From contig NC_088325.1 in the NCBI RefSeq assembly GCF_910592395.1, positions 2,385,501 through 2,449,500 of the forward strand: a DNA stretch of 64,000 nucleotides, given 5' to 3'. The DNA comes from Lineus longissimus. Taxonomy: Eukaryota; Nemertea; Pilidiophora; Heteronemertea; Lineidae. Made by a program: the position numbers and the translations under genes. Below are positions 3,711-62,038 of the stretch, in pieces. Each line of letters starts with the position of its first letter. The first letter of the stretch is position 1. The notes below the pieces were generated by a model. The model was not told the origin of the DNA, ran no database searches, and saw only the letters and a list, made by a program, of their open reading frames with translations.

Positions 3711-4037
3711 AAACTCTCCTTGTGAAGACGATAACGAACACCATTAGTAATTTACGGCCTCTCATCGGCGAAACGATAACTCTGAGTTGTAACACTTCGG
3801 GTGGACCCTTCATCGATGTTGTGTGGTGGAAGAACAAACACCGTGACCCAAAAACAGTACTAACTTACAACTGTATAGTTGTTGCAGAGGATTACACGTC
3901 AAGATTAACGAACCGTACATGTGACACGAATAACTTTGATTTTCAATTAAGAAATGTTCAAATCTCGGACAGCGGGATTTGGGAGTGTGGGACTCAATCA
4001 TTATCGTCCACAACAAGACCTGTATTGGATGTTTTAG
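3711..4037 (+). CDS. Gene A exon: V-type Ig domain
   Basis: Acceptor CTAATTTTAG, donor GTAAGC, phase 1-1. Encodes a V-like domain with TLSC (B strand), VWW (C strand), and SDSGIWEC (F strand). It shares with the V domains of B-F the additional cysteine pair (YNC and RTC), so it is orthologous in fold, but most loops differ. Confidence 0.85.
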
Positions 4038-7000
4038 GTAAGCTTGAAAAACAGCAATCGTACTCAAGTCACCCAAACATAGTTCTCGTTACCAGCACCA
4101 TCCCATTGCTTTTTATAAGATGACAGTAAATGCCATCAGAGATCATATCATAAAAACCTGCCGCGTTGAAAGTGATTATTATTATTAGAATTAACCCAAA
4201 CAAATTAAAAAGTATTCGAGAAACCGGTGTGCAAGGGATAGTAGTCCTAGGGCTGATAGTCCGTGTAACAATAGCCCGCATTGCTAAATGTTTTGGTAAG
4301 GGTTAGCGGTACAATAGATCATGCTGCTTAATTGATCAAATACAATGCTACCGGACTATGACTCCAGGGGGACTATATCCGCTGTCACACCGGGCCCTGC
4401 ACTTAAATTCTCCACAAATATGTATCAAAGAAAAGAAAGACGTATGTGGTTAATGCAATGCGAGAGCGTTCCTTCTAACAATTTGTATGTCACTGGGTAA
4501 AATGCATGGTATTCTAGGTCCTGCTTACAAATTTTTTTTCTTGAATTTGAAAATTTACAGTATCATATAACATCACAAACACGTTCTTGATCATACCAGG
4601 AAATTATTATTTTTAAATTGAAGAGCTGATTTATCATTGGTTGTCATAAATGTGACGTCATTGAAATGACTTCTGTTGCTGAATTGTCTTCTGAGGCTGG
4701 TTACTTTCCCTCTTCTGTCTGTGGGGCTCCAGTAAGAATGGTAAATACATGTATTGTAGTAAATAGCTTATTACGGCCAGCGCCCGAATACTGTTTCCCT
4801 TAGTTCCAGTACCACCACAAAAACCGAGAGTCACAAATCCATCACCGATCATAGTTGGAAAAACTGCCAAGTTCACCTGCAATGCCGAAAATGAAAACGT
4901 CACGAAACCAGTCACGTACACGTGGACTAAAAATGGCGACACTGTGTCACCAGGGACCATTGAACGTGGTGCCCTGCTTTTCTCGCCCGTCAAGAAGAGT
5001 GATGCCGGGAAATATGTCTGTGTCGCGAAAAATGATGCTGGATCTATGACAAGCACTGAACAAGTTCTCGTTGTGTACCGTGAGTATTCTTTGTGTGTTC
5101 CTCTTCATGAAACTGTTAATACGTTGCTTGTACCCAACTCCCCACCCCCACCCCTCAAGGACCTTGCCATCTTCACCATATTTGTTAAAAATAGAGTCAA
5201 GTGATAATAACTACAAAATGCATGAGCAAACATATATTTAACCCTTTTAGATCATAAGGTTATACCATATATTGGCATGGAAATGTACCTCTACAAACAC
5301 AAGTAATATAATACGGCTTGGCCTGTTTGTGCACAAAATGAGTTGTTTAGACCGTTTTTACCAATTACTACGAATTTCATCCAGGATGAACACATCTGCA
5401 GACTTTGTCGAGCTACGAAGCATGTCTTTAAAATGAAATAACTTGGCACTTTTCGAGAAAATACACCACCACTGTCTGCTTTTTCTTTACATCGTGAGCG
5501 TAAGTCCACGATTTTCCGATTTCCAAGTCGATATGGTTTTACAGTGTAGAGACGAACCTTTACAAATTCAAAAGATAGTTAAAAACGTTACTTTTTAAGG
5601 AGTGGAGAGTAGTGGTGTCTACCGCGGAAAGGCGCAATATACATGACAATTATTGATATTATTATTAAGACAACCCCGCTGCCCCCCCCCTCCGCAATTT
5701 AGTCTACAACTATTAAGCTACAGTGGGAATGCCTCTTCTACAGGTCGTGGGTTTTTATGAACGATTACCCTCAAAGGTTCGATCCAACCAACCAGCATTT
5801 GTTATCAGAGATCATATCATAAAAAACCTGCCGCGTTGAAAGTGATTATTATTATTAGAAATTAACCCAAACAAATTAAAAAGTATTCGAGAAACCGGGC
5901 CCTGCACTTGAATTCTCCACAGTATCAAAGAAAAGAAAGACGTATGTGGTTATTAATGCAATGCGAGAGCGTTCCTTCTAACAATTTGTATGTCACTGGG
6001 TAAAATGCATGGTATTTTAGGTCCTGCTTACAAAATTTTTTTCTTGAATTTGAAAATTTACAGTATCATATAACATCACAAACACGTTCTTGATCATACC
6101 AGGAAATTGTTATTTTTAAATTGAAGAGCTGATTTATCATTGGTTGTCATAAATGTGACGTCATTGAAATGTCTTCTGTTGCTGAATTGTCTTCTGAGGC
6201 TGGTTACTTTCCCTCTTCTGTCTGTGGGGCTCCAGTAAGAATGGTAAATACATGTATTGTAGTAAATAGGTTATTACGGCCAGCGCCCGAATACTGTTTC
6301 CCTTAGTTCCAGTACTACCACAAAAACCGAGAGTCACAAATCCATCACCGATCATAGTTGGAAAAACTGCCAAGTTCACCTGCAATGCCGAAAATGAAAA
6401 CGTCACGAAACCAGTCACGTACACGTGGACTAAAAATGGCGACGCTGTGTCACCAGGGACCATTGGAACTGGTGCCCTGCTTTTTTCGCCCGTCAAGGAG
6501 AGTGATGCCGGGAAATATGTCTGTGTCGCGAAAAATTATGCTGGAACTAAGGCAAGCACTGAACAAGTTCTCGTTGTGTACCGTGAGTATTATTTGTGTG
6601 TTCCTCTTCATGAAACTGTTAATACGTTGCTTGTACCCAACTCCCCAACCCCAACCCTCAAGGACCTTGCCATCTTCACCACATTTGTTAAAAATATAGT
6701 CAAGTGATAATAACTACAAAATGCATGAGCAAACATATATTTAACCCTTTTAGATCATAAGGTTTTACCATGTATTGGCATGGAAATGTACCCCTACAAA
6801 CACAAGTAATATAATACGGCTTGGCCTGTTTGCGCACAAAATGAGTTGTTTAGACCGTTTTTACCAATAACTATGAAATTCCTTCAGGATGAACACATCT
6901 GCAGACTTTGTCGAGCTACGAAGCATGTTTTTAAAATGAAATAACTTGACACTTTTCGAGAAAATACACCACCACTGTCTGCTTTTTCTTTACATCGTGA

Positions 7001-10000
7001 GCGTAAGTCCACGATTTTCCGATTTCCAAGTCGATATGGCTTCACTTGATTCATTTTAGCTCCACACTCTGCACCCAGTAAGCTCAAAGTAGTGAACACA
7101 ACTGCCGTAGCAGTAACTCTCGAGTGGATCTCAGAATTCAATGGTGGATCGAAGCAGAGGTTTTACGTCCAATACAAGAAGTCTGTCGACAACTGGGATG
7201 TTGCCGCGGACGTTCCTCAAGGAGGAATAACTGATCCAGGTCTCAAGAAAGCCGTGTATCACAAGGTTATGGGTCTTGAGTCGAATGTCGGGTATATGTT
7301 TAGGGTGCGCAGCAAGAATTCCGACCCGGGAACTCACACGAGCAAATTCAGCAACATAACATCTGGAAAAACGCTCGGTATGTGAGTCTATTTTTGAGAC
7401 CTTTACACAATTACAGTGTAGAGACGAACCTTTACAAATTCAAAAGATAGTTAAAAACGTTACTTTTTAAGGAGTGGAGAGTAGTGGTGTCTACCGCGGA
7501 AAGGTACAATATACATGACAATTATTGATATTATTATTAAGACAACCCCGCTGGCCCCCTCCGCAATTTAGTCCACAACTATTAAGCTACAGTGGGAATG
7601 CCTCATCTACAGGTCGTGGGTTTTTATGAACGATTACCCTTAAAGGTTCGATCCAACCAACCAGCATTTGTTGTAGTTTTAATTACCATGAGATACATTT
7701 TCCGGTAGGAAGGGGAGGTATTGAACGTCATGAGTCTTTTGCCATATCTTTAGCGTAGCGGATCGGGACTATATAATGGGCTAACTCAGCATCCGCAAAG
7801 TTGTTTTTCTAATTTGCAGAGAAGCCCCAGACGTCCCACATCAGCGTGAGCCGCACAGACAACAAAGTAACCGTGCGCTGGAAACAAGTGACCGGAAAAT
7901 ATACTGCGATAAAGGTCAACTACTGCGAGATCGACACGGGAGACTGCATGAATTACACCGTGCCTAATCCGGAGGACAACCATGCAACATTTTTCCTTGA
8001 CGCCAACAGGACATATTATTATCATTTGATAATTGTAGATGGTGGCGATGTTGTATATACGAGCACGGGCATCAAGGATGGAATCAATGACGAGAGCTAT
8101 TTGAAAGTTGTTGATGACAAGACAAGCGTAGGTGAGTTGGGTTTTGCTCAAATCAAATATGGATATTTGTATCGACTATCATTATAAAGAGATAAAAGCT
8201 CGACAGAACATAGAAACTTCGATTGGTTTAAATTATAATATAACCCAGTTTGTTTTGGTAATGCATTCATTCAGGAGACTGCTTACTATGAGACAAGACC
8301 ACTAATGAATATTCATAGGTTGGAAGGTCGAGGCCTATCAATTAGACGAGTGCATGTTTTTAACTCTCAAGTACCTATTTGGAGAGGTATTGAAAACATA
8401 TTTGTTGTGGCAAGTCTACAGATATAAAGAAATTATTTGATGAAAAAATTAATTTCGAATTTTGCTAATTGGGTAATAGGGGGCGTGTTTTGAGTTTTTT
8501 CTGCCAGTTGGCTGAAAAGAGTGGAAATATCAATGTCTGTCTAATTTGTCGATTATCAAAAAATTTCCGTGGTCAACTACCAGTTTATTTTTCACCATTT
8601 ACTTGCCCGACTGTCCGGAATATCATATCAAAATTTCAGATTCACAACCCCACGCAGTATTTGATGCGTCGCGGTCAAACTTAGTTTTCTGGAGATCCTA
8701 TTTTGTAACGAATAGTTGTTTTTTCACAGCTGTTTTAGGCGGTCTGGTTGGAGCAGTCATTATAGCAATAGCAGGCATGACAGGCGTCATTGTGGCAGTT
8801 GTTCTATGGTAAGTCAGATACATACGTTTACACTTATAACATTTTTACAACATGCTGTGCACACACATAGCAACAAAATAGCTAAAACATTTTTACAACA
8901 TGTTATAATATAATATAATATTGTTGTGCTTATATAGCGCTTCTCAGAACGATTGCTGTTAAAGCGCTACTCCCCATAAAACTTCCTGAATAACCAGGTC
9001 TTTAACCCATTTTTGAATGCTGCAGTAGACTCCTGGGAAGTTATTTTTGTTGTTGTTGTTGAAATTTGGATTTGGGAGGGAAAATGGATGCTCCAAAGGG
9101 GAGGAGCTGTGTTTTCAGTGACTGCAGCCGAGCAATTTTAAATGTTATTGTCGAGTGGCGAAAGAAACTTCAAGGGGAGGGGGTCATTTTGCGCATATCA
9201 CTGGACGTTTGACATTTTGTCCTATGCATTAGCCTTTCGGTCCTATTTTGTGTCCAATTGTAGTACAGTGCCCCATGCATAATGGCGGATGTTATTTTGT
9301 CCAAGTCACATGGCTTCAGATAGATCCTATTTCTGATTGGCTGAATAGTTCATATTATTTTTGCGACATGCAACAAAGAAATGCTTTGCTTTGCATTAAA
9401 TTTGCAACATTGCTACGACATGGACTTGGAATTTGGACTGTTCAACAAGTTCTATTAAATGCTGTGTTTACTTCCGTAGGAAACGTGGCCTGGTGTGCAT
9501 GCGATGGGGAAATGGGCAGAGTCATCGACCTGCAAATGACACTGCAGATAACAATGGTACGAGGGTTGAATTCACAACCATGAATAGTTCTGTACAAATC
9601 TACAACGATATTGGAACTGAGCAGCAAAATGATGTCGTTCACGCTGCAAGCACGACCGGCCAAAACCCAGCAGAGTCCACGGGGCACCACGCTCCAGCAA
9701 ATGAAGACTTTCGGAATGAGTCCACGTCCTCAGACGATGACGTGAATGCATACGACTACGCGTTTAGCTTGACGACATGGAAGCCAGGTGTTTCAGTGCA
9801 GAGCCCTGTTTCTGTTCGCCAGGCGAACCGAGCGGAGCCGGAGGATGCGACCCATTACGAAGTAATGCAAAGGGAGCTGGAGACCGAGTACACATACAAC
9901 CAGTTGCCAATCCTCAAGCTAGAACAACGAGACCAAAGCACAACCGAAAGCGGTTTAGGGAAGGCCGATGTCGCCAAAGAATTGACTCCAAGTCGCTCGA

Positions 10001-10122
10001 GTGACGATGTGGCTGACGGTCGAGACTCGCCATATGCACATCTGGATCGAGTAGAGAGTGTAAAGGCTGGAGAGTATTTGGACTTTGCACAGCTGAGTCC
10101 GGAACAATTGAGACCGATGTGA
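3711..10122 (+). CDS. Gene A: Ig-superfamily membrane receptor, V-I-I-FN3-FN3-TM-tail (5' end uncertain)
   Basis: Exons: V 3711-4037, I-set 4810-5079, I-set 6313-6582, FN3 7060-7377, FN3 7820-8131, TM 8730-8808, tail 9480-10122. All extracellular exons start and end in phase 1, the TM exon ends in phase 2, and the joined frame is open. It encodes about 740 residues plus a signal peptide that I cannot place with certainty. The V domain and tail are clearly homologous to those of genes B-F but divergent, whereas the I-set exons are nearly identical to theirs. It is the only gene in the window with fibronectin III domains. The tail keeps the tyrosine layout of the family (YEVM-x9-YNQL, SPYAHL, EYLDF). 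Likely a cell-surface recognition/signalling receptor; ligand unknown. An AATAAA at 10329-10334 is a plausible polyadenylation signal. Confidence 0.8.
4135..5803. repeat. Intragenic tandem duplication in gene A, unit 1
   Basis: Begins ATCAGAGATCATATCATAAA and ends AACCAGCATTTGTT. It carries the first I-set exon. Relative to unit 2 it has about 165 extra bases (about 4227-4391) and lacks the FN3 exon: GTCGATATGG runs straight into TTACAGTGTAGAG near 5538. Confidence 0.85.
4810..5079 (+). CDS. Gene A exon: I-set Ig domain, first copy
   Basis: 270 bases, phase 1-1, acceptor TAGTTCCAG, donor GTGAGT. Reads KFTCNAEN, YTWTKNG, DAGKYVCVAKN: the Cys-Trp-Cys core and D.G.Y.C motif of I-set domains. 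It differs from the gene E I-set exon at only a handful of bases over about 210, far closer than the V domains are. Confidence 0.9.
6313..6582 (+). CDS. Gene A exon: I-set Ig domain, second copy
   Basis: 270 bases, same boundaries as the exon at 4810, from which it arose by tandem duplication (period 1503 bases here). Changes include ERG to GTG and NDAGSM to NYAGTK; Cys and Trp core residues are kept. Confidence 0.9.
7060..7377 (+). CDS. Gene A exon: fibronectin type III domain 1
   Basis: Phase 1-1 exon of 318 bases, acceptor TCATTTTAG, donor GTATGT. Shows the FN3 pattern: PPHSAPSKLKV, TLEW (B strand Trp), FYVQYKK, GLESNVGYMFRVRSKN (E-F turn and Tyr), then SNITSGKTL. Confidence 0.9.
7820..8131 (+). 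CDS. Gene A exon: fibronectin type III domain 2
   Basis: Phase 1-1 exon of 312 bases, acceptor TTTGCAG, donor GTGAGT. FN3-like: TVRW, YTAIKVNYCE, LDANRTYYYHLIIVDG. More divergent than the first FN3, with two cysteines (NYCEIDTGDC) that may pair locally. Confidence 0.8.
8730..8808 (+). CDS. Gene A exon: transmembrane segment
   Basis: Phase 1 in, phase 2 out, acceptor TTTTCACAG, donor GTAAGT. Encodes AVLGGLVGAVIIAIAGMT followed by GVIVAVVLW, an uncharged 26-residue helix. Confidence 0.85.
8925..9060. repeat. Short interspersed repeat-like stretch in gene A intron
   Basis: An AT-rich (ATAAT)n run is followed by TTGTGCTTATATAGCGCTTCT, an inner AAAGCGCTAC and a TTGTTG run. TATATAGCGC blocks are common in dispersed repeats of marine invertebrates, but no polymerase III boxes are clear. 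Family not assigned. Confidence 0.35.
9480..10122 (+). CDS. Gene A exon: cytoplasmic tail and stop
   Basis: Acceptor ACTTCCGTAG, stop TGA. Starts with the basic patch KRGLVCMRWGNGQSHR and carries tyrosines in QIYNDI, AYDYAF, YEVM-x9-YNQL, SPYAHL and EYLDF. The exon is 643 bases, as in every other copy. Confidence 0.9.
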
Positions 10123-10890: not shown

Positions 10891-10891
10891 T

Positions 10892-11650: not shown

Positions 11651-11964
11651 ATGATATCTGTACAATTCCATACCTTACAATGTACATGTACTCACTGATT
11701 GGCCAATTTGATACATAGATAATGCTTATTGCTATAACCAGACAATAAATAGTTACATAAGCTTTGAAATTGTCTGATTTTTTGCTCATCTATTATCAGC
11801 AAGTAGGGCAACTATATGTAGTAAGTGATCACGAGTTAAGAGTATATGAAAACGATATATTATTCCCTTGTCCCATCAAACATGACATCATTTCATATTC
11901 CATTTCTATCACGGAAAGCAGTCGGTCTAATCACGAGGAGGGAAATCTAGTAACGTAATTTTAT

Positions 11965-12280
11965 GCCATAGAGCCAGTAGTCATCGCGTTCAACGAAAAT
12001 CTATGCTATATCGCTAAAGGCCATCGGGTTCAACGAAGTTTTATCCATACCGCCAGGAGTCGTCGGTTTCAACGAGGCTTTATTCCATACCGCCAGGAGT
12101 CATCGGATTCAACGAAACTTTATGCCATACCGCCAGGAGTCATCGGGTTCAACGAACATTTCAGCCATACCACCAAGAATCATCGCGTTCAACGAAAATC
12201 TATGCCACATCGGCCAAGAGTCATCGGGTTTAACGAAACTTTATGCCACACCTCCAGGAGTCATCGCGTTTAAACGGACT
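11965..12280 (+). repeat. 40-bp minisatellite upstream of gene B (about 8 units)
   Basis: Imperfect units of the form TTCAACGAAGCTTTATTCCATACC-like with CCAGGAGTCATCG, period 40 bases. Ends about 110 bases before the start codon. Units here are more diverged from one another than those of gene F. Confidence 0.9.
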
Positions 12281-12392: not shown

Positions 12393-12438
12393 ATGGCAAT
12401 CATACCACTCGTGACGCTTTTACTTTTCAAGTTTGGAG
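12393..12438 (+). CDS. Gene B exon 1: signal peptide
   Basis: MAIIPLVTLLLFKFG plus one base, donor GTAAGT, phase 1. Hydrophobic core IIPLVTLLLF. The longer in-frame reading present in other copies is closed here by TGA at TGTTGACAT. Confidence 0.85.
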
Positions 12439-15400
12439 GTAAGTTATATATTGCGAGCATTTTCGAACATCGTACGAATTAAGTAGGTACTAAATATGAA
12501 AATTTGTTGACATACTAGTATATACAACAACTATGTATGCATAATAACTGCGCTACGGCATTGTGTATAACTGCATTTCTATTTTCCTGGACCATCAGTA
12601 ATTACCTTTAAAGCTGTGGTATTGTATTTGCCTGTGTTGCAATGGGAACATATCGTGTTTCTAATCTAATTTCAGGTGCTCTCGGGTTGATGGCGGTAAC
12701 GAATACCCTAAGTAATTCACGACCACGCCTCGGCGAAACGATAACGCTCAACTGTACTGTGTCGGGTGGAGCCGGCAGCGTTCTAGGGTGGTACGTGTTC
12801 GCACATGATAGGGAAGAAACAATACATTTGTCGAACGATTGTTCTGTTGTTGCAAAGGAGTATAAATCAAGATTAACAAACACTAAATGTGATTCGAATG
12901 ATGATAATTATAATCACATTTTTCAGTTAAGTAATGTTCAAATTTCGGACCGAGGGTCGTGGTACTGTCAGGCTTTTGGCACAGTCCGCTGGACTTCGAT
13001 AAGTAAGCTTGAATTGAATGTTTTAGGTAAGTTATAAACAACATTTATCATATCAAAGCAGCACTCAAACTGTCCCTTACCTCACAGGCCTGGCCCACCG
13101 GTCTACTATCTTTAGCCAGCCGGCACCTTCGCCTGTCTTCTCATTGTTCTACTGTCTTATCAAAGGCTATGAAGCCAAATCTCCGTAACAGCAACTCCCA
13201 GGTCACAGCTTTCACTGGGGTCGATTTGCCAAAACTGGCAAGCACAAATAAATGTAATGTCTTTGATCGTTTCTCTCGTGTCATCCTCCTTAACTCAGGA
13301 ACTAAAATCATCGAACACCTGTGTTACAATGTCCCAATATATTGGACTCATGTAAAATTGCATCCTCGCATATAACGGACAGGTCTTTCAACTCCCAAGT
13401 CCAAGTTTTCAAGTCGCAGATGACGTGACCTTTTAGCCGCCCTCTTGCGCTTTCTATGAGGCTGTAGTAGGAATGATAAAGATGTTGATATGCCGCCCAG
13501 TTGCCGACTACTGTCTCTTTCCTTGATTCCAGGTCCACCCCTCACCCCGACAATCACAAATCCATCGCCAGTCAAAGTTGGAAAAACTGCCAAGTTCACC
13601 TGCAATGCCGAAAATGGAAGCGTCACGAAACCAGTCACGTACACGTGGACTAAAAATGGCGACGCTGTGTCACCAGGGACCATTGAACCTGGTGCCCTGC
13701 TTTTCATGCCCGTCAAGAAGAGTGATGCCGGGAAATATGTCTGTGTCGCGAAAAATGATGCTGGATCTATGACAAGCATTGAACAGGATTTTGTTGTATA
13801 CTGTGAGTAATCTTTGTGTATTCTCGGTCATTACGTCTGTTTGCCGCATACCTCGCAGTAAATTCACGCCTAGACAAATACACAGTCAATTGTCTCTAAA
13901 AGAAGTCAACAAGGCCTAAATTCCCATTGTTCTCATGTCTTATCAATGGGTTATCAGGGCAAACCTTGTTATCATCGACCCCCATGAAACACCTTACAGG
14001 GTGTCGATAAGCCTAAACCAGCAAGGCATTCAACGTAATGATAGGATTGGCTACAGGCAATTTAAAGGACGATTGGTATTATTAAGGCCAATATTATCAA
14101 GCTGTCGGCTGCCCAGTCACCTCTTATTCTACATAAGTAGATTCCATCAAAAAATTGCATAAAAAAGGACAAATGCAAAATCTTACTGAATTATCACGCT
14201 TTTCCGATGTTGACTCCGATTTGACCCGAGTTAGCTCTCCATGCGTCGACCCTTCCCATGTGGAACGATGCACGAGTAAGGCGCTTCCTTGAGCCGTGGA
14301 TCTACCCTGTGACGACTTGGTGTAGATATAGTTTTTTCCGACGTCACGCTGATAACCCCGCTATATGCGGCGATAGTGGAAATGACGCGGCGTCGTAATA
14401 GCGGGGTAACGTTTTTTGTTGAAGGCAGTGATTTTGAATGGAGACATAGTATGGACATTCTTGCCCCTGTTCTATTATGTACGCGTGACTTCTTCGAATA
14501 TGCCTTCAATGGAAATTGCTAAAGGGCTACGCCGTTCGTAATTACTTGTGGTCCAGTTAAATAGAAATCCACTAATACACAATGCCGTAGTGCAGTTATT
14601 GTGAATACAAATTTGTTGAAACTTGGTATTCATACTATTTGTATATCAGTCTGCACCACGGCAGTGTTGAATTTATATTTAGTATGTATTTTCGCAATTG
14701 GACAATTTTTTTATTCAATTACAAATTCAAAATTTTTAACGAACGGCGTAGGCCTTTAAGGTGGCTGCGACTTCTCCAAACAGGATTATTGAAAAGTCAT
14801 CGAACTGCAATAAACAACGGTGTAACCATAAGCCTGCCTGAAATGTACACGCCATGTCCGAAACTGCCTCACAAGACAGGGTGATGATACAGGTGGCGGC
14901 GCGTGGTGGCAAGTAAATGCATTATCCTCCTGGCCAGGTTAATACCACGCCCAAGTTGACCTTTTAAGAAAAGCTGATTCAGAACATATTAGGCGTAACC
15001 AGGGTTTCTAAGGAAAATGTCATTTTCGAAGATGCTAGGAATTTTACGCCGTTCGTCACTTTTAGAGATGACTTTTGGCCGGAGGTTTTTTTTTAGTCAA
15101 TTGCATTTTTTCCCCGAAAGTACTCCCGACGAGTAACTACATGTACATCAATTTTCAGTTCCCCACAAAGTTGAAGTCAAAACCAACAAGATTGCTGCAA
15201 ATGAAAATGAATTCGTGCGGTTTGAATGTGCTACCAGCGGCGGCAACCCAGAGCGCGTCGAGCGGTACCAGTGGCTCTGGATGAAGAGCAGCTCCAACGC
15301 GGAGCTGTTCATCCAGGACACCGCGACCAGCAGGCAGAATGGAAAGTTCTTAGAGTTCGCGCGTATAACGTACGATAGGAGTGGGACATACTCCTGTGAG

Positions 15401-18400: not shown

Positions 18401-18534
18401 CTCCAACTCGCTCGAGTGACAATGCGTCTCACGTTAAAGAGTCACCATATGCACATCTAGAGCCAATGGAAACGATACAGTATTTAGATTTCAGTCAGCT
18501 GAGTCCGGAACAATTGATCGAGGTCGATTTATAA
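12393..18534 (+). CDS. Gene B: Ig-superfamily membrane receptor, SP-V-I-Ig3-Ig4-TM-tail
   Basis: Exons: 12393-12438, 12676-13026, 13533-13802, 15159-15452, 15934-16236, 16846-16936, 17892-18534; 1998 bases, 665 residues, no internal stop. Predicted type I membrane protein: signal peptide 1-16; V domain 16-132 (Cys42, Trp54, Cys113, extra Cys71/Cys87); I-set 133-222 (Cys156, Trp171, Cys203); Ig3 223-320 (Cys246, Trp261, Cys302); Ig4 321-421 (Trp362, Cys402, no B-strand Cys); TM 422-451; tail 452-665. Tail tyrosines sit in SVYDDI (Y490), YELM (Y579), YNDL (Y592), SPYAHL (Y638) and IQYLDF (Y649). The start at MAIIPL is favoured because an in-frame TGA lies 10 codons upstream in this copy. The combination suggests an immune/allorecognition-type receptor; no orthologue name is claimed. 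Confidence 0.88.
12676..13026 (+). CDS. Gene B exon 2: V-type Ig domain
   Basis: 351 bases, acceptor AATTTCAG, donor GTAAGT. ITLNCTVSGG, GWYVFAHD, SDRGSWYC. The segment after the last Cys (QAFGTVRWTSIS) is shared only with gene E. Confidence 0.9.
13533..13802 (+). CDS. Gene B exon 3: I-set Ig domain
   Basis: 270 bases, acceptor GATTCCAG, donor GTGAGT. Begins GPPLTPTITNPSP, ends QDFVVY. Carries IEPGALLFMPVKK, a variant also found in the first I-set exon of gene C. Confidence 0.9.
13803..15158. other. Intron between I-set and Ig3 exons of gene B
   Basis: Holds a CG-rich hairpin at 14351-14410 (ATAACCCCGCTATA against TAGCGGGGTAAC) and a MITE at 14521-14757. The same intron in C and E has the same content, with extra insertions in C. 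Open frames here are not coding. Confidence 0.7.
14521..14757. mobile_element. MITE in gene B intron 3
   Basis: About 237 bases with inverted ends AAAGGGCTACGCCGTTCGT and ACGAACGGCGTAGGCCTTT, plus an inner inverted pair around ATGCCGTAGTGCAG and CTGCACCACGGCA. Non-autonomous; superfamily not assigned. Confidence 0.75.
15159..15452 (+). CDS. Gene B exon 4: Ig3 domain
   Basis: 294 bases, acceptor AATTTTCAG, donor GTAAGT. VRFECATSGG, YQWLWMK, DRSGTYSCEAW: an I-set-like domain with the full Cys-Trp-Cys core. Confidence 0.9.
15934..16236 (+). CDS. Gene B exon 5: Ig4 domain lacking the B-strand cysteine
   Basis: 303 bases, acceptor TTCACCCACAG, donor GTGAGT. GYNWSKDGD and SSDYGNYMCSVKT mark the C and F strands, but the B-strand position reads SFELFI, with Leu347 where Cys is expected. 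Confidence 0.88.
16846..16936 (+). CDS. Gene B exon 6: transmembrane segment
   Basis: 91 bases, phase 1 to 2, acceptor TTCCTTCACAG, donor GTAAGC. Gly/Val-rich VVVGVGGLVGVGVGAA then VIVAIASVGLAVFLR, no charge inside the membrane. Confidence 0.9.
16937..17891. other. Gene B intron before the tail exon
   Basis: 955 bases with no recognised element. The homologous introns of C and E are collinear; those of D and F carry a LINE insertion at the AAAAAGGCTTT|AGATATA site corresponding to about 17579-17590 here. Confidence 0.6.
17892..18534 (+). CDS. Gene B exon 7: cytoplasmic tail and stop
   Basis: Acceptor ACTTCCGTAG, stop TAA. Basic stop-transfer RKRALVRQRKRQSR, then an acidic, tyrosine-rich tail with YELM-x9-YNDL and YAHL-x7-YLDF pairs. 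Nearly identical to the tails of C and E. Confidence 0.92.
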
Positions 18535-46492: not shown

Positions 46493-46808
46493 GCCATACC
46501 ACCAAGAATCAGCGCGTTCAACGAAAAGCTATCCTATATCGCTAAAGTTCATCTGGATCAACGAAGCTTTATTCCATACCGCCAGGAGTCATCGAGTTCA
46601 ACAAAGCTTTATTCCATACCGCCAGGAGCCATCGAGTTCAACAAAGCTTTATTCCATACCACCAGGAGTCAGCGGGTTCAACGAACATTTAAGCCATACC
46701 ACCAAGAATCATCGCGTTCAACGAAAATCTATGTCACATCGGCCGAGAGGCATCGGGTTCAACGAAACTTTATGCCATACCACCAGGGGTCATCACGTTT
46801 AAACGGAC
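46493..46808 (+). repeat. 40-bp minisatellite upstream of gene E (about 8 units)
   Basis: Same unit order as C and D, with a few point differences (GGCCGAGAGG, CCAGGGGTC). Confidence 0.9.
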
Positions 46809-46921: not shown

Positions 46922-46967
46922 ATGGCAATCATACCACTCGTGACACTTTTACTTCTCAAGTTTGGAG
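46922..46967 (+). CDS. Gene E exon 1: signal peptide
   Basis: MAIIPLVTLLLLKFG (Phe to Leu), donor GTAAGT, phase 1. Confidence 0.85.
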
Positions 46968-49900: not shown

Positions 49901-52900
49901 GAGTTCGCGCGTATAACGTACGATAGGAGTGGGACATACTCCTGTGAGGCTTGGAACCTTGGTGGGATGGGAAAGGCGTCGATTGACCTCAATGTACAAT
50001 GTAAGTTTGTTCCTGCATTCTTTGTAAGATCTGCTAAGATTTGCACCAACTTGAAACACAAGTGGTGACTGTTAGTTACGACACGTACCTCGACTTTTTT
50101 CCGTCCCAATGTATACGCTACCAGAGAACTACATACATGCCATACTCGACCTCACTGAACTGGACATCTTGTACCGAATATCCACACAGACATCCTCATG
50201 AAATTCCTTTCCATGTACTATCTGAACCATTATGAATACAATTACGAAGAGTGGTATCAAACATGTCAAATAGCTTACATGTACTGTCAAAGTGAAAACA
50301 TTATATCATATCCAGGAGTATACCAAGCTTGGTCGGTATTACGTAGAAGGAAGAGAAGGAAGATCTCCTAAACAGGGACTAAAAAGTAGGAACTTTGTGA
50401 TTTTCATTACACAATCTCCCCCTAATGAATTGTGCAGTGCATCATGCATTGCCCTCTGAACACTTTCTTTTCACCCACAGACTCTCCAAGAATAGACCCA
50501 GATGTGAAAATGAAGTATGACGTGGTAGGCGAGATGGGCAAGGAGGCATCATTCGAACTGTTCATCATCGCCAATCCGACTCCGGACACAACCGGTTACA
50601 ACTGGTCCAAAGATGGCGACATCCTGTTGAACTCATCGGGAAAATATGAAATTATTTCTGGGCCCAGGTCGAGCAAGTTGATAATCAGAAACGTCAAATC
50701 CTCCGATTATGCGAACTACACATGTTCTGTGAAAACGAATGGATTTCAAGTGAAGGTCTTCAAGTTTAGGCTTATCAAAGCAGGTGAGTTCTATTGAGCT
50801 GTGGGTGGATTCCCCACGAAGCTGGGTATACTCAGTTTTACCCAACCGAAACACGCTGTGAAATATGGAAGAAAGCTGTAACTTAAACATGCGGAGAAGG
50901 TCTGAATGAGTTCTGAAGATTGGAACACGTTCAGGGGCCGACCCTAGTGTCTATTTTTGCACACACCTCGCTTAATATTGGTTGTTTGGACGAGAGACCA
51001 AGTGGAAACGTGTGGCCAAAGGAAGCTGTTTTTCTTGCCCAAAAGCAGTCAATATGACACGCCCCAAACTGGCAGCGACTGAAAAAAATATCCAACCACT
51101 CCCATCTGTCTCAGGCCTGGGAAATAAGGGGGCAATTTTTAAGATGTCACCCGTTAAAGTGAGTATTTGCCATTGCACTAATAAAAACATCCTTAGACAC
51201 AGGTCACGACCGTCAGTTACGTAACGTACCTTGATCGGCTTTTTCGTCGGGAAGTTTTCGCTAGTAGAGAAATCTAAGTACGTACTGTGTTCCAAAACCA
51301 TTCATGAGAAGACATAGGAATTTTTTGCTGCAATCCTATAGTTTACATAAAACTTCTTACATATCGTTGTTGGGACTTTTTCCTTCACAGTTGTTGTTGG
51401 TGTTGGCGGTCTGGTTGGAGTCGGAGTTGGAGCTGCAGTCATTGTAGCGATAGCCAGCGTCGGTTTGGCAGTTTTTCTACGGTAAGCTATCTATTAATAA
51501 AGTCGGATACAGAGGCCTGTGGGTGTAACGGTATATTCGCTACATAAAGGACATTTGCCAGATTTGCCAGTACCACCTAGGGTAGAGAATATTAACTATC
51601 TGTACAATAGGTCTTGGCGGTAAAAGACGCCAAACAATGGTTCCAGATGTAGTGGTGGCATATTCCTGCTAGCACCCTCGAGAGAGTTTTCACAAACCCA
51701 CGAATGTCAATGCAAACGCATGCCATTGTCATGGGGAGGACGAAAAATGGGATAGGCGTTCACGCGTAGCGTTGCGGGGATTTGCGAAAACATTCTATTG
51801 TTTCGCGTCGTTCACCGCGAATATCTATTGTAGGCGGATTATTTCTCTACTCAAAGTACAGGCGTATCTGCCAAAGGGCCCATTATGCTGTAGCTGAAGG
51901 ACATGTTTTAGGCATCACGCATTCATCGAAAAACGTCTTGACCGACTTGCTATATATTACTATAATGTGATTTGTAACCACTTTGAAAATACATGTACCG
52001 TCTGCTTGAGGGGAACGACATACGCCTCGTACAGTAATATTTGAAATACAACCGCGACTATGGGGTCTTCAACAGTATGGACACTTTTTGCCTCCAGTGT
52101 ACTCGTCACAAAATTTAAAAAGGCTTTAGATATATAGCACTAATGCATTAATTGATTGATTGATTCCTAAGTCCGGCTGGCCCTAGGCTGTACCGCCTTG
52201 GAAGCTCGTCAGCTGTGATATCTGATATCTGATTTTGATTTTAGCTAATTTAAAGCGGAGTTTCCCGAAGGAGTTCCCGTTCTAAAGAGAACTCGGCGTC
52301 GCAGGCGTAATATGACCTAATGAATGGCGGGTAATACCGACGTCACCTTACAAGCGATGGCGTCGGTATATGAACTCGACCCGCCAAAGGAAATTTGTCA
52401 GATCTAGTAAAACTGTTTTTATTTCCGTAGGAAACGTGCACTGATACGTCAGAGAAAGAGGCAGAGTAAACAACCCGCAAATGACACTGCAGATTACGAT
52501 GATACGAGGGTTGTATTCACAACACCCGGAGATATTTCTGTATATGACGATATCGGAGGTGATGAGTACGAAAGTTCTGCTTCTCACCCCGAAAGCGCGG
52601 CCGGCCAAAACCCCGCAGAGCCCAGGATTACGGGGCACCACGTTCCAGAACATGGAGTCCTTGGGGATGTGCCTGCGACCTCAGATGAGGACGAGGCTGC
52701 TTACGACTATGTGCAAAATTACACCTTGAAGCTACATGAATGTGTTTTAGGTCAGAACACGATTCCTGCTCCTAAGGTGAATTGGGCGGATCCTGAGTAT
52801 ACCGTCCAGTACGAACTCATGCAAAGGAGGCCAGAGTCAATATACACATATAACGACTTACCAATCCTCTCACAGGGACCGCCAGACCGAAGCAAGGCCA

Positions 52901-53073
52901 AGTGTGATTCGAGACAAGTCGATGGAGCCGAAAATTTGACTCCAACTCGCTCGAGTGACAATGCGTCTCACGTTAAAGAGTCACCATATGCACATCTAGA
53001 GCCAATGGAAACGATACAGTATTTAGATTTCAGTCAGCTGAGTCCGGAACAATTGATCGAGGTCGATTTATAA
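46922..53073 (+). CDS. Gene E: Ig-superfamily membrane receptor, SP-V-I-Ig3-Ig4-TM-tail
   Basis: Exons: 46922-46967, 47219-47569, 48078-48347, 49707-50000, 50481-50783, 51391-51481, 52431-53073; 1998 bases, 665 residues, same length and layout as gene B and open throughout. It is the closest relative of B: same CDR3-like loop (QAFGTARWTSIS), no 485-bp element in intron 1, uncharged TM, all tail tyrosine motifs. The I-set exon has ENENV and IERG, as in gene A and F, rather than B's IEPG. In intron 3 it preserves the empty site of the foldback element of gene C. Confidence 0.88.
47219..47569 (+). CDS. Gene E exon 2: V-type Ig domain
   Basis: 351 bases; differs from B at AMEY, SRLRNT and GTARW. 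Confidence 0.9.
48078..48347 (+). CDS. Gene E exon 3: I-set Ig domain
   Basis: 270 bases, VPPLTPTVTNPSP to QDFVVY; KFTCNAENENV, YTWTKNG, KYVCVAKN. Confidence 0.9.
49067..49305. mobile_element. MITE in gene E intron 3 (uninterrupted)
   Basis: Third copy of the MITE at 14521; GTTGAATTTACATTCAG at about 49211 is the empty target of the foldback element in gene C. Confidence 0.75.
49707..50000 (+). CDS. Gene E exon 4: Ig3 domain
   Basis: 294 bases; ITVNENEF and KSGSNAEL, ends LNVQ. Confidence 0.9.
50481..50783 (+). CDS. Gene E exon 5: Ig4 domain
   Basis: 303 bases; DYANYTCSVKTNGF variant gives an N-glycosylation sequon NYT next to the F-strand Cys. No B-strand Cys. Confidence 0.88.
51391..51481 (+). 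CDS. Gene E exon 6: transmembrane segment
   Basis: 91 bases, residues as in gene B. Confidence 0.9.
52431..53073 (+). CDS. Gene E exon 7: cytoplasmic tail and stop
   Basis: 643 bases, stop TAA. Differs from B near the start (ALIRQRKRQSKQ); the acceptor tract has TATTTCCGTAG. Confidence 0.9.
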
Positions 53074-55918: not shown

Positions 55919-56595
55919 GCCATACCACCAAGAATCAGCGCGTTCAACGAAAAGCTATCCTATATCGCTAAAGTTCATCTGGATCAACGAAGCTTTATTC
56001 CATACCGCCAGGAGTCATCGAGTTCAACAAAGCTTTATTCCATACCGCCAGGAGTCATCGAGTTCAACAAAGCTTTATTCCATACCGCCAGGAGTCATCG
56101 AGTTCAACAAAGCTTTATTCCATACCGCCAGGAGCCATCGAGTTCAACAAAGCTTTATTCCATACCACCAGGAGTCAGCGGGTTCAACGAAGCTTTATTC
56201 CATACCACCAGGAGTCATCGTGTTCAACGAAGCTTTATTCCATACCACCAGGAGTCAGCGGGTTCAACAAAGCTTTATTCCATACCGCCAGGAGTCATCG
56301 AGTTCAACAAAGCTTTATTCCATACCGCCAGGAGTCATCGAGTTCAACAAAGCTTTATTCCATACCACCAGGAGTCAGCGGGTTCAACGAAGCTTTATTC
56401 CATACCACCAGGAGTCATCGTGTTCAACGAAGCTTTATTCCATACCACCAGGAGTCATCGGGTTCAACGAACATTTAAGCCATACCACCAAGAATCATTG
56501 CGTTCAACGAAAATCTATGTCACATCGGCCAAGAGGCATCGGGTTCAACGAAACTTTATGCCATACCACCAGGAGTCATCACGTTTAAACGGACT
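55919..56595 (+). repeat. Expanded 40-bp minisatellite upstream of gene F (about 17 units)
   Basis: Twice the length of the homologous arrays. Several units are identical (GTTCAACAAAGCTTTATTCC with ATACCGCCAGGAGTCATCGA), and multi-unit blocks recur, so expansion was recent and in blocks. The array is open in one frame by chance of its 40-bp period. Confidence 0.95.
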
Positions 56596-56707: not shown

Positions 56708-56753
56708 ATGGCAATCATACCACTCGTGACGCTTTTACTTTTCAAGTTCGGAG
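56708..56753 (+). CDS. Gene F exon 1: signal peptide
   Basis: MAIIPLVTLLLFKFG, donor GTAAGT, phase 1. Confidence 0.85.
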
Positions 56754-59700
56754 GTAAGTCACATTTTGCGAGCATTTTCGAACAACGTACGAATTCAGTA
56801 GGTACTAGATATGAAAATTTGTTGGCATACTAGAATAACTATGTATGCATAATAACTGCGCTACGGCATTGTGAATCGGCCCAACGACATATTAGCGAGT
56901 TTCCGCATCGCTTACGATTACGATTACGATTACGATTTGTGTTTGACGTCATCGATTTTTGGTGCTACGTCGTCCCCAGCGAAATCGTCGATGGTAATTT
57001 CGTCTCGTTCTTACGAGGATTCCGGCTGATCTTCGTAAGTCGAAAAACGATTACATGGATTAGCGACAAGCCTATTTTCCACGCTATATATACATATCAA
57101 ATTCAAGGTGAAATATTCATTGAAGAATACTTTAGAACATATCTGTCAAACATAGGAACTGCATTTAATTTGATCAACGGCGATTTTGATCATGTTTTAG
57201 CGCCGAGAAAAGTGCTGCCAGAGCATGAGAGCAGAGTATAGGGCCTATACTACAGTACACCAAGTCGTTGGTGTGAATGCAGAAACAAAATTTCTGGTTC
57301 ATGCCGGTTTTTAGAGTATTACGATTACGACTTTGAAATCGTAATCGTAATCGTAATCGTAAGCGATGCGGAAACTCCCTATTAATTTTCCTGGACCACC
57401 AGTAATTACGAACGGCGTCCCCCTTTAAAGATGTGGTATTGTATTTGCCTGTGTTGCAAGGGGAACATATCGTGTTTCTAATCTAATTTCAGGTGCTCTC
57501 GGGTTGATGGTGGTAACGAATACCCCAAGTAATTCACGACCACGCCTCGGCGAAACGATAACGCTCAACTGTACTGTGTCGGGTGGAGCCGGCAGTGTTC
57601 TCGGGTGGTACATGTTCGCACATGATACGGAAGAAACAATATATTTGTCGAACGATTGTTCCGTTGTTGCAAAGGAGTATAAATCAAGATTAACAAACAC
57701 TAAATGTGATTCGAGTGATGATAACTATAATCACATTTTTCAATTAAGTAATGTTCAAATTTCGGACCGAGGGTTGTGGTACTGTCAAGCCGTTGTCAAT
57801 ATCAACTGGGCTCGATCACGTAAGCTTGAATTGACTGTTTTAGGTAAGTTAAAAACAACACTTATCATATCAAAGCAGCACTCAAATTTGCCCTTACTTC
57901 AGTTAAAAAATAATTCAGGCCTGGCCCAATACGCGGCCTTCTGTCTTTAGCCAGCCGGCACCTTGGCCTCATTTCCCATTGTTCTCCTCTCATACAAAAG
58001 GGCTATCAGGCCAAATCTCCGTGACATCAACCCCCCCACGAGCCAGCTTTCACGGGGGTCGATTTGCTGAAACCACCCTCTTACGCTTTCTATTAGGCTC
58101 TAGTAGGAATGATGAAGATGTTGATAAGCCGTCCAGTTGCCGACTACTGTCTCTTTCCTTGATTCCAGTTCCACCCCTCACCCCGACAGTCACAAATCCA
58201 TCGCCTGTCAAAGTTGGAAAAACTGCAAAGTTCACCTGCAATGCCGAAAATGAAAACGTCACGAAACCAGTCACGTACACGTGGACTAAAAATGGCGACA
58301 CTGTGTCACCAGGGACCATTGAACGTGGTGCCCTGCTTTTCTCGCCCGTCAAGAAGAGTGATGCCGGGAAATATGTCTGTGTCGCAAAAAATGATGCTGG
58401 ATCTATGACAAGCATTGAACAGGATTTCAGCGTTGTATCCTGTGAGTATTCGTTGTGTATTCTCGGTCATTACGTCTGTTTGCCGCATACCTCGCAGTAA
58501 ATTCAGGCCTAGACAAATACACGGTCAATTGTCTCCAAACAAAGCCAACTTGGCCTGAATTCCCATCTTCTGTATTATCAAAAGGTTAGCAGGGCAATCA
58601 CTATCATCAACCTCAATATTTTGCAACCGTTTATGACGTTGTAAGATATCGCCACCTGGATAGCGGAAATGTCAGCAGTCTACCTAGCTCATTATACAGG
58701 GTGGTCCAGAACAAACGCAACCGGATACTTCCACTACCAATGGGTTAAAACCATTGTAACCAGTGGATGGGGAAATTTCTAGAAAAAGAATCCAAGATCG
58801 GGTCTCAGATTAGGGTTTCCGATTGTGCAGTGCATCATGCATTGCCCTCTGGACACTTTCTTTTCACCCACAGATTCTCCTGGGATAGACCCAGATGTGA
58901 AAATGAAGTATGACGTGGTAGGCGAGATTGGCAAGGAGGCATCATTCGAACTGTTCATCATCGCTGACCCGACTCCGGACACAACCGGTTACATCTGGTC
59001 CAAAGATGACGACATACTGTTGAACTCATCGCGAAAATATGAAATTATTTCTGGGCCCAGGTCGAGCAAGTTGATAATCAGAAACGTCAAATCCTCTGAT
59101 TATGGGAGCTACATGTGTTCTGTGAAAACGAGTGGATTTCAAGTGAAGGTCTTCAAGTTTAGGCTTATCAAAGCAGGTGAGTTCTATTGAGCTTTTGGTG
59201 GATTCCCCACGAAGCTGGGTATAGTCAATGTTACCCAACCGAAACACGCTGTGAAATATGGAGGAAAGCTGTAACTTAAACATGCGGAAAAGGTCTGAAT
59301 GAGTTCTGAAGATTGGAACACGTTCAGGGGCCGACCCTAGTGTCTATTTTTGCACACACCTCGCTTAATATTGGTTGTTTGGACGAGAGACCAAGTGGAA
59401 ACGTGTGGCCAAAGGAAGCTGTTTTTCTTGCCAAAAAGCAGTCAATATGACACGCTCAAAACTTGGTGCGTCTAAGAAAAATCGATATCCGACCACTCCC
59501 ATCTCAGGCGGGCCATTTTCAAGATGTCTCCCGTTAAAGTGAATTTTTCCCATTGCACCAACATAAAAATTCTTTTTGACAAAGGTCGCGATCGTCAGTT
59601 ACGTCACGTACCTTGATCGGCTTTTTGTCCCCAACGTTTCGGTAGCAGATAGAGAACTATGAATGCTGGAATGCACGTACGCAATGTGTTACAAAACCAC

Positions 59701-62038
59701 TCGTAAGAAGACATACATCGTAGGATCGTTTTTTGCTGCAATCCTATAGTTTACATAAAATTTCTTACATATCGTTTTTCCTTCACAGGTGTTGTTGATG
59801 TTAGCGGTCTGGTTGGAGTCGGAGTCAGAGCTGCAGTCATTGTAGCTATAGCCAGCGTCGGTGTGGCAATTGTTCTATGGTAAGCTATCTATAAATAAAG
59901 TCGGATACAAAAGCCTGTGGGTATAACGGTATGTTCGCTACATAAAGGGCATTTGCCAGATACGCAAGTACCACCTAGGGTCAAGGAATCTAACCAGCTG
60001 TACAATAGGTCTTCGCGGTTAACGACGGAGGCAAAAAGTGTCCATACTGGTGACCCCGTGGTCACGGTTGTGATTCAAATATTACTGTACGAGGCGTATG
60101 TCGTTCCCCTCAAGCAGACGGTATTTTTTAAAGTGGTTGCAAATCTCAGTAAATAATAATATATAGCACGTCGGTCTGGACGTTTTCCGATGAATGCGTG
60201 ATGCCTAAAACATGTAGTGTACTCGTTACAGTAAAAAGGCTTTATTTATTTATTTATTTATTTAATCGTACATAATAGTAAATTCAACAGAGTGCAGTGC
60301 TGTATTGTGCAGTGAGAAAAATAAATAGATGGAAGAACATTTTAAAAACAAGTTAGAAACAGGCAGCAAATGCCACAACTAATTACCAGTGATACTCAAT
60401 TGAACTTGTTTATACAGATATTATATTGGCCATCAACAAATTATTCAGTCTCAGGTGTCTGTAAAATTTAGTTTACACATAAATCATTTAATATAGTATT
60501 AATCTCATCAAGATTAAAGAAATTGCGGTCTCTATTGTCTCTCGAACTTATCATATCTCTGATGACATTTGCCTTGTCTCTTAGAATGACTGTTGCATCA
60601 TTTAAAAAAACAGTTTTATTTATAGAAATCTGTGTAACATCATATTTTGTAACACCCGCTTTTGCCCACACGGTATTGATGTTGTTAGCGACCTGTGAAT
60701 TACTACCCTTAAGGCCCAACTGACCAGTAATTCTTAGCAATGGGTTAGTGCTTCTTGCTATCCCACCAATGAATTTTAAGAAGCGCGTATGGAGTTGCAG
60801 TTCTGGGGGTAGATCTTCACAGATGAGTGGGAGCAGATTAGAGTGTGTCAAATAGGACACATTATATAATTTCCTGACACATGTCCTCCAGGCGACGCAG
60901 AATCGATCAAGTTTTCTGGGGGTAATATATAGTGCCATTGCGAATGATTTGAATAACTTGTATTTTGTTACTGAGTGGCAATGTCCAAATTGAGCAACCA
61001 AAGTATTTACTCTAGAATACAAAACGTTGATGGCATTTTCAAGGTTTTTTCCATCACTATTCTCTCCAACAATATGACCAAGGTGAGTGGCCTTTAGATA
61101 TATTGAACTAATGCATTAATTGATTAATTGATTCCTAAGTCCGGCTGTCCCGAGGCTGTACCACCCTCTTGGAAGCTCGTCAGCTGTGATATCTGCTTTT
61201 GATTTTAGTTAATTTAAAGCGGAGTTTCCCCAAGGAGTTCCCGTTCTAAAGATAACTCGGCGCCGCAGGCGTAATATGGCCTAAAGCATGGCGGGTAATA
61301 CCGACTTTACCTTATAAACGATGGCGTCGGTATGTGCAATCGACCCGCCAAAGGAAATATGTCAGATCTAGTAAAAATGTTTTTTACTTCCGTAGGAAAC
61401 GTGCACTGGTACGTCGGAGAAAGAGGCAGAGTAGACAACCCGCAAATGACACTGCAGATTACGATGATACGAGGGTTGTATTCACAACCCCCGGAAATAT
61501 TTCTGTAAATGACGATATGGGGAGTGATGAGTACGAAAGTTATGCTTCTCAGCCCGAAAGCGCGGCCGGCCAAAACCCCGCAGAGCCCAGGATTACGGGG
61601 CACCACGTTCAAGAACACGGAGTCCTTGGGGATGCGCCTGCGTCCTCAGATAAGGACGAGGCTGCTTACGACTATCTGCAAAATTACACCGTGAAGCTAC
61701 ATGAATGTGTTTTAGGTCAGAAAACGATTCCTGCTCCCAAGGTGAATCGGGCAGATCCGGAGTATACTGTCCCTTACGAACACATGCAAAGGAGGCCAGA
61801 GTCAAAATACACATACAACGACTCACCAATCCTCTCACAGGGACAGCCAGACCGAAGCGAGGCCAAGTGTGATTCGAGACAAGTCGATGGAGCCGAATAT
61901 TTGACTCCAACTCGCTCGAGTGACAATGCGTCTCACGTTAAGGAGTCACCATATGCACATCTAGAGCCAATGGAAACGATACAGTATTTGGATTTCACAC
62001 AGCTGAGTCCGGAACAATTGATCGAGGTCGATTTATAA
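56708..62038 (+). CDS. Gene F: short Ig-superfamily membrane receptor, SP-V-I-Ig4-TM-tail
   Basis: Exons: 56708-56753, 57493-57843, 58169-58441, 58874-59176, 59789-59879, 61396-62038; 1707 bases, 568 residues, open throughout. Same domain plan as gene D (Ig3 exon missing, LINE in last intron, Arg338 in the membrane span). Its tail is the most divergent of the B-F set: YNDL has become YNDS, YELM is YEHM, SVYDDI is SVNDDM, and a new tyrosine appears in GAEYLTP. SPYAHL and IQYLDF are unchanged. Together with the doubled upstream minisatellite this makes F the most distinct member of the D/F class. Confidence 0.87.
56895..57379. mobile_element. 485-bp TIR element in intron 1 of gene F
   Basis: Third copy with the same TATTA flanks (56890-56894, 57380-57384). 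Confidence 0.85.
57493..57843 (+). CDS. Gene F exon 2: V-type Ig domain
   Basis: 351 bases; NTPSNS, HDTEETIYLS are private changes; loop QAVVNINWARSR. Confidence 0.9.
58169..58441 (+). CDS. Gene F exon 3: I-set Ig domain
   Basis: 273 bases, VPPLTPTVTN to QDFSVVS; the end matches gene C exon 3. Confidence 0.9.
58874..59176 (+). CDS. Gene F exon 4: Ig4 domain
   Basis: 303 bases; IADPTPDTTGYIWSKDDD, SDYGSYMCSVKT; no B-strand Cys. Confidence 0.88.
59789..59879 (+). CDS. Gene F exon 5: transmembrane segment with arginine
   Basis: 91 bases, same residues as gene D, Arg338. Confidence 0.88.
60244..61088 (-). mobile_element. 5'-truncated LINE insertion in gene F last intron
   Basis: 845 bases, the same insertion as in gene D with the same GGCTTT/GGCCTTT flanks; only a few substitutions separate the two copies. 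Confidence 0.85.
60468..61022 (-). pseudogene. LINE ORF2 C-terminal remnant (184 codons), gene F copy
   Basis: Differs from the gene D copy by one visible residue (QLGLKG for QLALKG). Retention of the open frame in both reflects recent duplication, not selection. Confidence 0.75.
61396..62038 (+). CDS. Gene F exon 6: cytoplasmic tail and stop
   Basis: 643 bases, stop TAA. First half as gene D; second half with NRADPEYTVPYEHM, SKYTYNDSPI and GAEYLTPT. Ends TQLSPEQLIEVDL. Confidence 0.92.

Follow-up and report, generated by a model that had tools for sequence, protein, structure and literature searches.

The stretch of DNA considered here (the window) comprises 64,000 nucleotides of the nemertean (ribbon worm) Lineus longissimus, the bootlace worm, C19:2385501-2449500, where C19 is contig NC_088325.1 (15,888,539 bases) of assembly GCF_910592395.1. 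It carries six head-to-tail genes on the plus strand, g1 to g6, which encode single-pass receptors of the immunoglobulin superfamily (IgSF). An initial annotation, made from the sequence alone, had placed them at 3711-62038, an interval that starts exactly with the g1 V exon and closes exactly with the g6 stop codon. As it held, all six splice to proteins without an internal stop (6/6), and their exons are phase-compatible: immunoglobulin (Ig) and fibronectin type III (FN3) exons are phase 1-1, the transmembrane (TM) exon is 1-2, and the tail, a single exon, runs from phase 2 to the stop. It missed the signal-peptide exon of each gene. In g2-g6 this exon reads MAIIPLVTLLLFKFG or LLKFG; in g1 it lies 3.9 kb ahead of the window (window -3869 to -3824, C19:2381631-2381676).

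Exon boundaries were read on the sequence and projected onto all copies, with the g4 Ig2 acceptor taken as 37185; internal boundaries are AG/GT. Since the spliced g1 protein, signal exon included, is identical to the database protein P0009 (LOC135502364) at 758/758 residues, the splice rules have been checked independently. The spliced lengths are 758 (g1), 665 (g2), 756 (g3), 563 (g4), 665 (g5), and 568 (g6) residues. FN3 exons within the window belong to g1 only, g3 has two Ig2 exons, and g4 and g6 are without Ig3 (see table). The Ig and FN3 domains that had been read from the DNA are well beyond chance in a Pfam scan of the proteins (e.g., Ig_3 at 4.2e-34 for P0009). Some database models deserve caution: P0002, which is g4 minus its V exon, looks wrong, and P0006 and P0026 seem to fuse two adjacent genes.

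Table. Genes and gene-heading minisatellites in the window (window positions; SP, signal peptide; TRF, Tandem Repeats Finder)
Feature	Span	Strand	Exons or copies	Remarks
g1 (LOC135502364)	3711-10122	+	V 3711-4037, Ig2a 4804-5079, Ig2b 6307-6582, FN3a 7060-7377, FN3b 7820-8131, TM 8730-8808, tail 9480-10122	spliced protein = P0009
Minisatellite before g2	11952-12270	+	TRF 8.0 copies	ends 123 bp ahead of ATG
g2	12393-18534	+	SP 12393-12438, V 12676-13026, Ig2 13533-13802, Ig3 15159-15452, Ig4 15934-16236, TM 16846-16936, tail 17892-18534	splicing and Pfam
Minisatellite before g3	21467-21712	+	TRF 6.1 copies	ends 128 bp ahead of ATG
g3	21840-32506	+	SP 21840-21885, V 22625-22975, Ig2a 23286-23558, Ig2b 23931-24200, Ig3 29138-29431, Ig4 29913-30215, TM 30824-30914, tail 31864-32506	splicing
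Minisatellite before g4	35350-35595	+	TRF 6.1 copies	128 bp ahead of ATG
g4	35723-41040	+	SP 35723-35768, V 36508-36858, Ig2 37185-37442, Ig4 37876-38178, TM 38792-38882, tail 40398-41040	splicing; without Ig3; Arg in TM stretch
Minisatellite before g5	46549-46794	+	TRF 6.1 copies	128 bp ahead of ATG
g5	46922-53073	+	SP 46922-46967, V 47219-47569, Ig2 48078-48347, Ig3 49707-50000, Ig4 50481-50783, TM 51391-51481, tail 52431-53073	splicing
Minisatellite before g6	55975-56580	+	TRF 15.1 copies	128 bp ahead of ATG
g6	56708-62038	+	SP 56708-56753, V 57493-57843, Ig2 58169-58441, Ig4 58874-59176, TM 59789-59879, tail 61396-62038	splicing; without Ig3; Arg in TM stretch

That there are six reflects only where the window happens to be cut, and the array continues downstream. 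Each of g7, g8, g9, and g10 splices to an open protein; only a remnant of the g7 Ig4 is left (it was omitted from the spliced model), and the donor used for the first g8 Ig2 seems 3 bases off. Next comes g11, whose tail is broken and which has additional Ig2 exons. Another broken tail (a remnant) lies at window +152.7 kb, exons on the minus strand follow at +164 kb, and a related but separate member with FN3 domains occupies +171.9 to +177.8 kb, where P0027 matches at 100% in three blocks. No further family exons were seen from there up to +224 kb, and tblastn found no V, Ig, FN3, or tail exons in the 100 kb upstream of the window. The array of the g1-g11 type thus spans approximately C19:2381631-2538795, and it is its first six genes that fall in the window; outside the 324 kb examined around the window, copy number is taken from database proteins only. 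An I-set profile search of the genome (151 matches; 150 of 1006 candidates scored) listed no place within the array, and its matches are therefore a poor guide to it. Elsewhere in the genome, C15:10.16-10.50 Mb has a dense run of I-set exons, with open frames up to 2588 residues, probably a titin/twitchin-type gene.

The membrane-distal domain belongs to the IgSF by its Pfam matches above cut-off, by its V-set model, and by its B-F cysteine pair and C-strand tryptophan. Across 19 aligned V domains C26 and W38 are invariant and C97 nearly so; all 19 also have a second invariant cysteine pair, at g2 residues 55 and 71. The Ig domains are canonical ones, and the V domain, as modeled, is an antigen-receptor-like V-set. 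In each of two structure comparisons the 50 matches listed are antibody domains, going by their titles. The fold is a common one, the lack of other families in these listings says nothing, and we rejected naming a family from structure. Database names for family proteins (hemicentin-, contactin-, titin-, and NCAM-like) provide only a generic IgSF placement.

The initial annotation called the tails tyrosine-rich and likened the genes to receptors with tails of "ITIM/ITAM type." An immunoreceptor tyrosine-based inhibitory motif (ITIM), SxYxx[LI], is present in 10/10 type-A tails tested (g2 and nine database proteins), compared with 0.17-0.66 per tail in shuffled type-A tails, and by the criterion [SILV]xYxx[ILV] it is also found in 10/10 array genes g1-g10. 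The activating counterpart (ITAM) gave 0 matches in the g1 and g2 tails and was rejected for the window; P0018, P0019, and P0020 each have a single match to a loose ITAM pattern. Six tails stand outside the ten-tail count (P0002, P0026, P0001, P0007, P0015, and P0027): the ITIM is present in P0002, which is the same gene as g4, and in P0026; P0001 and P0007 end short, ahead of its place; and P0015 and P0027 are taken up below. In nine aligned type-A tails (the repeated tail of P0013 was left out) invariance holds for the tyrosine in the ITIM, for the one in a near-end YL[DN][FL], and for both in YDY, and tail tyrosines are better conserved than other residues (0.61 vs 0.39, permutation p 0.02).

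Within the array the conserved ITIM is SPYAHL. A second, SVYDDI, is found in g2, g3, g5, and g8 and is missing in g1, g4, g6, g7, g9, and g10, and the g9 tail has lost its YLDF tyrosine as well. The best hydrophobic 19-mer, taken as the TM stretch, includes an arginine in 6/10 genes (g4, g6, g7, g8, g9, and g10) and none in g1, g2, g3, and g5. All six arginine-bearing genes keep SPYAHL and a full-length tail; five of the six are without SVYDDI, g8 being the one that has it.

Over 5-8 kb the array units share 96-97% identity, and their modules have been gained, lost, and exchanged. Relatives appear to be subsets of one shared order, V-Ig2-IgC2-Ig3-Ig4-FN3a-FN3b-TM-tail, in which single exons are missing or present twice and the tail is of type A, B, or C. 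The g1 Ig2a exon is 91-93% identical to the Ig2 exons of g2, g3 (Ig2b), g5, and g6, whereas its flanks are 74-76% (100 bp upstream), 61-68% (100 bp downstream), and 59-69% (300 bp) identical; forced alignment of unrelated DNA also yields approximately 60%. Synonymous divergence (dS) between g1 and the array is 0.11-0.20 for Ig2a, compared with 0.60-0.71 in the V exon and 0.52-0.55 in the tail exon, and the g1 Ig2 exchange was therefore confined to about one exon. The V exons of g2-g11 are mosaics, the four-gamete rule being violated in 44/435 pairs; in g10 a g2-like start is joined to a g4-like end. P0022 and P0028 agree at 97% across residues 30-520, after which they carry different FN3 pairs and tails (A vs B-like), possibly through recombination (a tail swap), alternative splicing of 3' exons, or a gene-model error. 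Pooled nonsynonymous/synonymous ratios per site (g1 excluded) are 0.79 for V, 0.42 for Ig2, 0.30 for Ig3 (three pairs), 0.58 for Ig4, 1.01 for TM, and 0.80 for the tail; these values suggest constraint on Ig2 and Ig3 and less of it on V and the tail.

Each of the 11 genes g1-g11 is headed by a 40-bp tandem repeat that ends 123-128 bp ahead of the start codon, in approximately 6 to 15 copies by TRF (in g1, a 39-bp unit in 10.6 copies). With a pattern allowing three mismatches, clusters of at least three units were found at those 11 places only, on both strands, within 304 kb, and eight unrelated I-set loci (approximately 3.3 kb each) had none by the same pattern. Although g1 is old (tail dS >0.5), it has kept the minisatellite. 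Short tandem repeats around the sea urchin Sp185/333 genes have been proposed as recombination drivers in those clusters (PMC5103432), and by analogy the minisatellite may be a recombination helper in this array.

Other repeats are also present. The first intron of g1, between the signal-peptide and V exons, holds a retroelement that we take to be DIRS-type and that is GC-rich (0.517 in window 1-4000), with a long gag-like open reading frame (ORF) on the minus strand at window 653-2959 (no Pfam match) and, at the upstream locus (L018:7660-9622, minus strand), tyrosine-recombinase-like and RNase H-like ORFs whose Pfam matches are weak and under cut-off. Between g4 and g5 an insertion of approximately 2 kb (42251-44240) has 676-bp terminal inverted repeats that are 99.85% identical, as in a young foldback-type element. 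A 215-residue ORF at 39470-40117 and again at 60468-61115, both on the minus strand, resembles a fragment of a retrotransposon without long terminal repeats and was duplicated along with g4/g6; its first copy has no Pfam match.

Where did the family come from? Residues 1-640 of g2 gave 25 database matches (best 7993 candidates scored), 22 of them from L. longissimus and the rest generic Ig proteins at 22-26% identity; 19 of those 22 lie on a contig of 15,888,539 bases, the length of C19. Tail A of P0022 alone gave 8 matches, all from L. longissimus (1062 candidates), and the P0022 ectodomain gave 9, of which 5 are from this species (best 7989 candidates scored). The matches outside Lineus (manatee, dog, tortoise, the snail Batillaria, a bird, and others) are generic Ig similarities at 22-27% identity and were rejected as orthologues. 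A comparison with a plasmid collection, ill-suited to this DNA, gave no match. It should be remembered that the confinement of tail A and of the strong relatives to L. longissimus may reflect which nemerteans are sequenced. A contig of 16,304,662 bases carries the long relatives P0029-P0031, whose database names are syg-2-, perlecan-, and titin-like. Their ends resemble tail B, which suggests that the family derived from a long adhesion-type gene. This is a lead only, because against solved structures CEA (2.6e-15) outscores SYG-2 (4.6e-12) in the same part of P0029.

Arrays of this kind are known from several animals. The vertebrate KIR/LILR, FCRL, SIRP, and CD300 receptors likewise form tandem arrays with ITIM tails, birth-and-death turnover, and some basic-TM copies. 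In contrast to them, the Lineus arginine-bearing copies keep long tails with one ITIM (both in g8) and the tail is one exon; the origin is presumably independent. The nearest published build that we found is FcoR of the Botryllus schlosseri fuhc locus, a type I TM protein with a signal peptide, a V-type Ig domain first, further Ig domains, one TM, and a long tail, described as 520-610 residues, with canonical ITIM or YxxI/L/V tail motifs and several copies per locus (PMC12065747). FcoR, however, has a sushi domain between its V and C2 Ig domains; Pfam gave no sushi match at E<=0.01 in P0009, P0002, P0005, or P0022, and we therefore do not class the Lineus genes with it. The Hydractinia Alr genes (41 in the allorecognition complex) are also an IgSF cluster with V-set and I-set domains (PMC11999971), and ITIM and ITAM are reported for Alr candidates (PMC12065747). 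They are cnidarian and their Ig domains are called unique, whereas those of Lineus pass ordinary Pfam cut-offs; no Alr protein was among the matches listed for three family queries, in searches that require shared words and that in two of the three cases scored a capped number of candidates. The Nephrin/IrreC/SYG-2 adhesion family is a possible source by way of the long relatives P0028-P0031, with their common domain order and tail-B-like ends; the window genes differ in having no IgC2, and no FN3 except in g1, and tail A was found in L. longissimus only. Crassostrea gigas CgIgIT2 is a lophotrochozoan IgSF receptor with a TM, a tyrosine motif, and a reported immune role; it differs, by its description, in having five Ig domains and an ITAM (PMC11999971).

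This is, then, a real, intact, and recently amplified array, of a known kind and of an apparently undescribed family. What the initial annotation called an invertebrate immune or self/non-self receptor cluster is indeed a clustered IgSF family with ITIM-type tails, in Nemertea, and no prior description was found in our searches of the open-access literature, which also yielded no account of nemertean allorecognition or Ig receptor clusters; an immune or self-recognition role is a plausible hypothesis. On balance we lean, by a little, towards regarding these genes as lineage-specific, tandemly amplified single-pass IgSF receptors, an ITIM-type recognition family known here from the genes of one genome. 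Each protein has a signal peptide, a V-set domain, two to four more Ig domains (in g1, two Ig and two FN3), one TM, and a long tyrosine-rich tail. The membrane-distal V domain would bind a ligand on another cell or on a microbe; clustering would then allow a Src-type kinase to phosphorylate the tail ITIM SPYAHL (in some copies SVYDDI too), on which SH2-domain phosphatases could dock and damp an activating signal. In this way the family might tune how readily haemocytes or epithelia respond to self versus non-self, and it could be relevant to the xenograft rejection with memory described for Lineus. Because the exons have phase-1 boundaries in common, and perhaps because of the minisatellite, unequal exchange that adds, deletes, and swaps modules would be favored.

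Several observations weigh against this reading. The ten V exons g2-g11 vary at only 48/348 sites, with two main FG-loop types; because they are nearly alike, the array alone is no repertoire, and by sequence its V domains are a recent, nearly uniform set. A hypervariable FG loop was considered and rejected: 16/48 variable V sites fall in codons 101-110, but in two main blocks (g2 and g5 vs the other eight, with one extra change in g3), for which one replaced tract suffices. In the wider family the CC' entropy (2.68) exceeds that of the FG loop (1.43), which is not the most variable part. Nor is there proof of positive selection, pooled ratios being at most about 1, with only TM marginally above; single pairs exceed 1 on few changes (g1 Ig2a/Ig2b 3.50, 10 vs 1; Ig4 g2/g5 3.29, 5.5 vs 0.5; TM 1.37; tail g4/g5 1.21; V g3/g6 1.11; Ig3 g2/g5 1.10). 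Some tails are without the canonical ITIM: the full-length type-C tail of P0015 has QSYEHL instead, in full-length P0027 the conserved place reads SPCAHP and PPYANL, with an isolated SEYTYI at another position, and among type-B tails, of which 6/7 have SPYSTV, P0005 has APYATV and no ITIM. Finally, a single ITIM is a weak motif, and ITIMs occur in adhesion molecules too.

An explanation that we think unlikely, although it deserves a serious hearing, is an expanded adhesion or wiring code, in which syg-2/nephrin-type genes were multiplied for neural, muscular, or epithelial adhesion and the tyrosines recruit cytoskeletal adaptors. The domain succession V, Ig2, IgC2, Ig3, FN3b and a tail-B-like end are common to P0028-P0031 and the array kin, P0029 is named syg-2-like by NCBI and matches solved SYG-2 over one stretch (the 4.6e-12 above), and the g2 ectodomain sequence finds titin, Robo, DSCAM, and contactins. 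Conserved wiring molecules, however, seldom come as recent tandem copies marked by exon loss, decay, and mosaicism, and the strong database relatives, among the matches listed, come from L. longissimus only. A narrower form of the recognition-family reading, that the receptors bind microbes rather than tell self from non-self, seems to us possible, if on the doubtful side. CgIgIT2 of the oyster, with five Ig domains, a TM, and a tyrosine motif, is mainly found in haemolymph and recognizes Vibrio splendidus and lipopolysaccharide (PMC11999971), and a study of L. ruber immunity covering Toll, Imd, and complement lists 16 Ig+TM genes as CRIg-like (PMC9835746). The tails here are ITIM-like, however, whereas CgIgIT2 is described with an ITAM, and the present evidence does not separate this role from allorecognition. 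We give very little credence to a recently amplified but largely functionless array, or to haplotypes misassembled in tandem. In favor are the near-identity of the units over kilobases, the broken tails of g11 and at +152.7 kb, and the g7 Ig4 remnant; yet the six window genes and g7-g10 all splice to open proteins, the units vary in exon content (Ig3, number of Ig2) and insertions, their order is by eye unlike that of two haplotypes, and the assembly (391 Mb, 19 chromosomes; 391,118,348 bases in the genome examined) is described as curated and purged of haplotypic duplication (PMC8593623).

A bolder version of the recognition-family reading links the array to transplantation. Lineus worms reject grafts from other species and retain a memory of this for three months; the genus is tabled for allograft and xenograft reactions (PMC2248247). 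That record of transplantation memory, due to Langlet and Bierne and seen via the same source, is decades old and concerns mainly between-species grafts, a further point on the debit side; our literature searches found no receptor named for the reactions. It is conceivable, but we judge it improbable, that the array and its chromosome kin are the receptor complex for this rejection with memory, a protostome complex independent of those of Hydractinia and Botryllus, splitting into incipient paired receptors with the minisatellite aiding turnover. The proposed split would set full-motif g2, g3, and g5 (two ITIMs, neutral TM) against attenuated g4, g6, g7, g9, and g10 (one ITIM, arginine in the TM). 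Two genes do not fit, g8 (arginine and both ITIMs) and g1 (neutral TM, one ITIM), and because of g8 the split is not clean.

The array places a chromosome-level cluster of intact ITIM-type Ig receptors in the same genus as the graft-memory reports and thereby provides named genes for study, and a minisatellite at a fixed position before each gene offers a concrete handle on how such arrays grow. If the role is immune, the family would be a further example, from Lophotrochozoa, of how IgSF genes become a tandem receptor array with tyrosine-motif tails.

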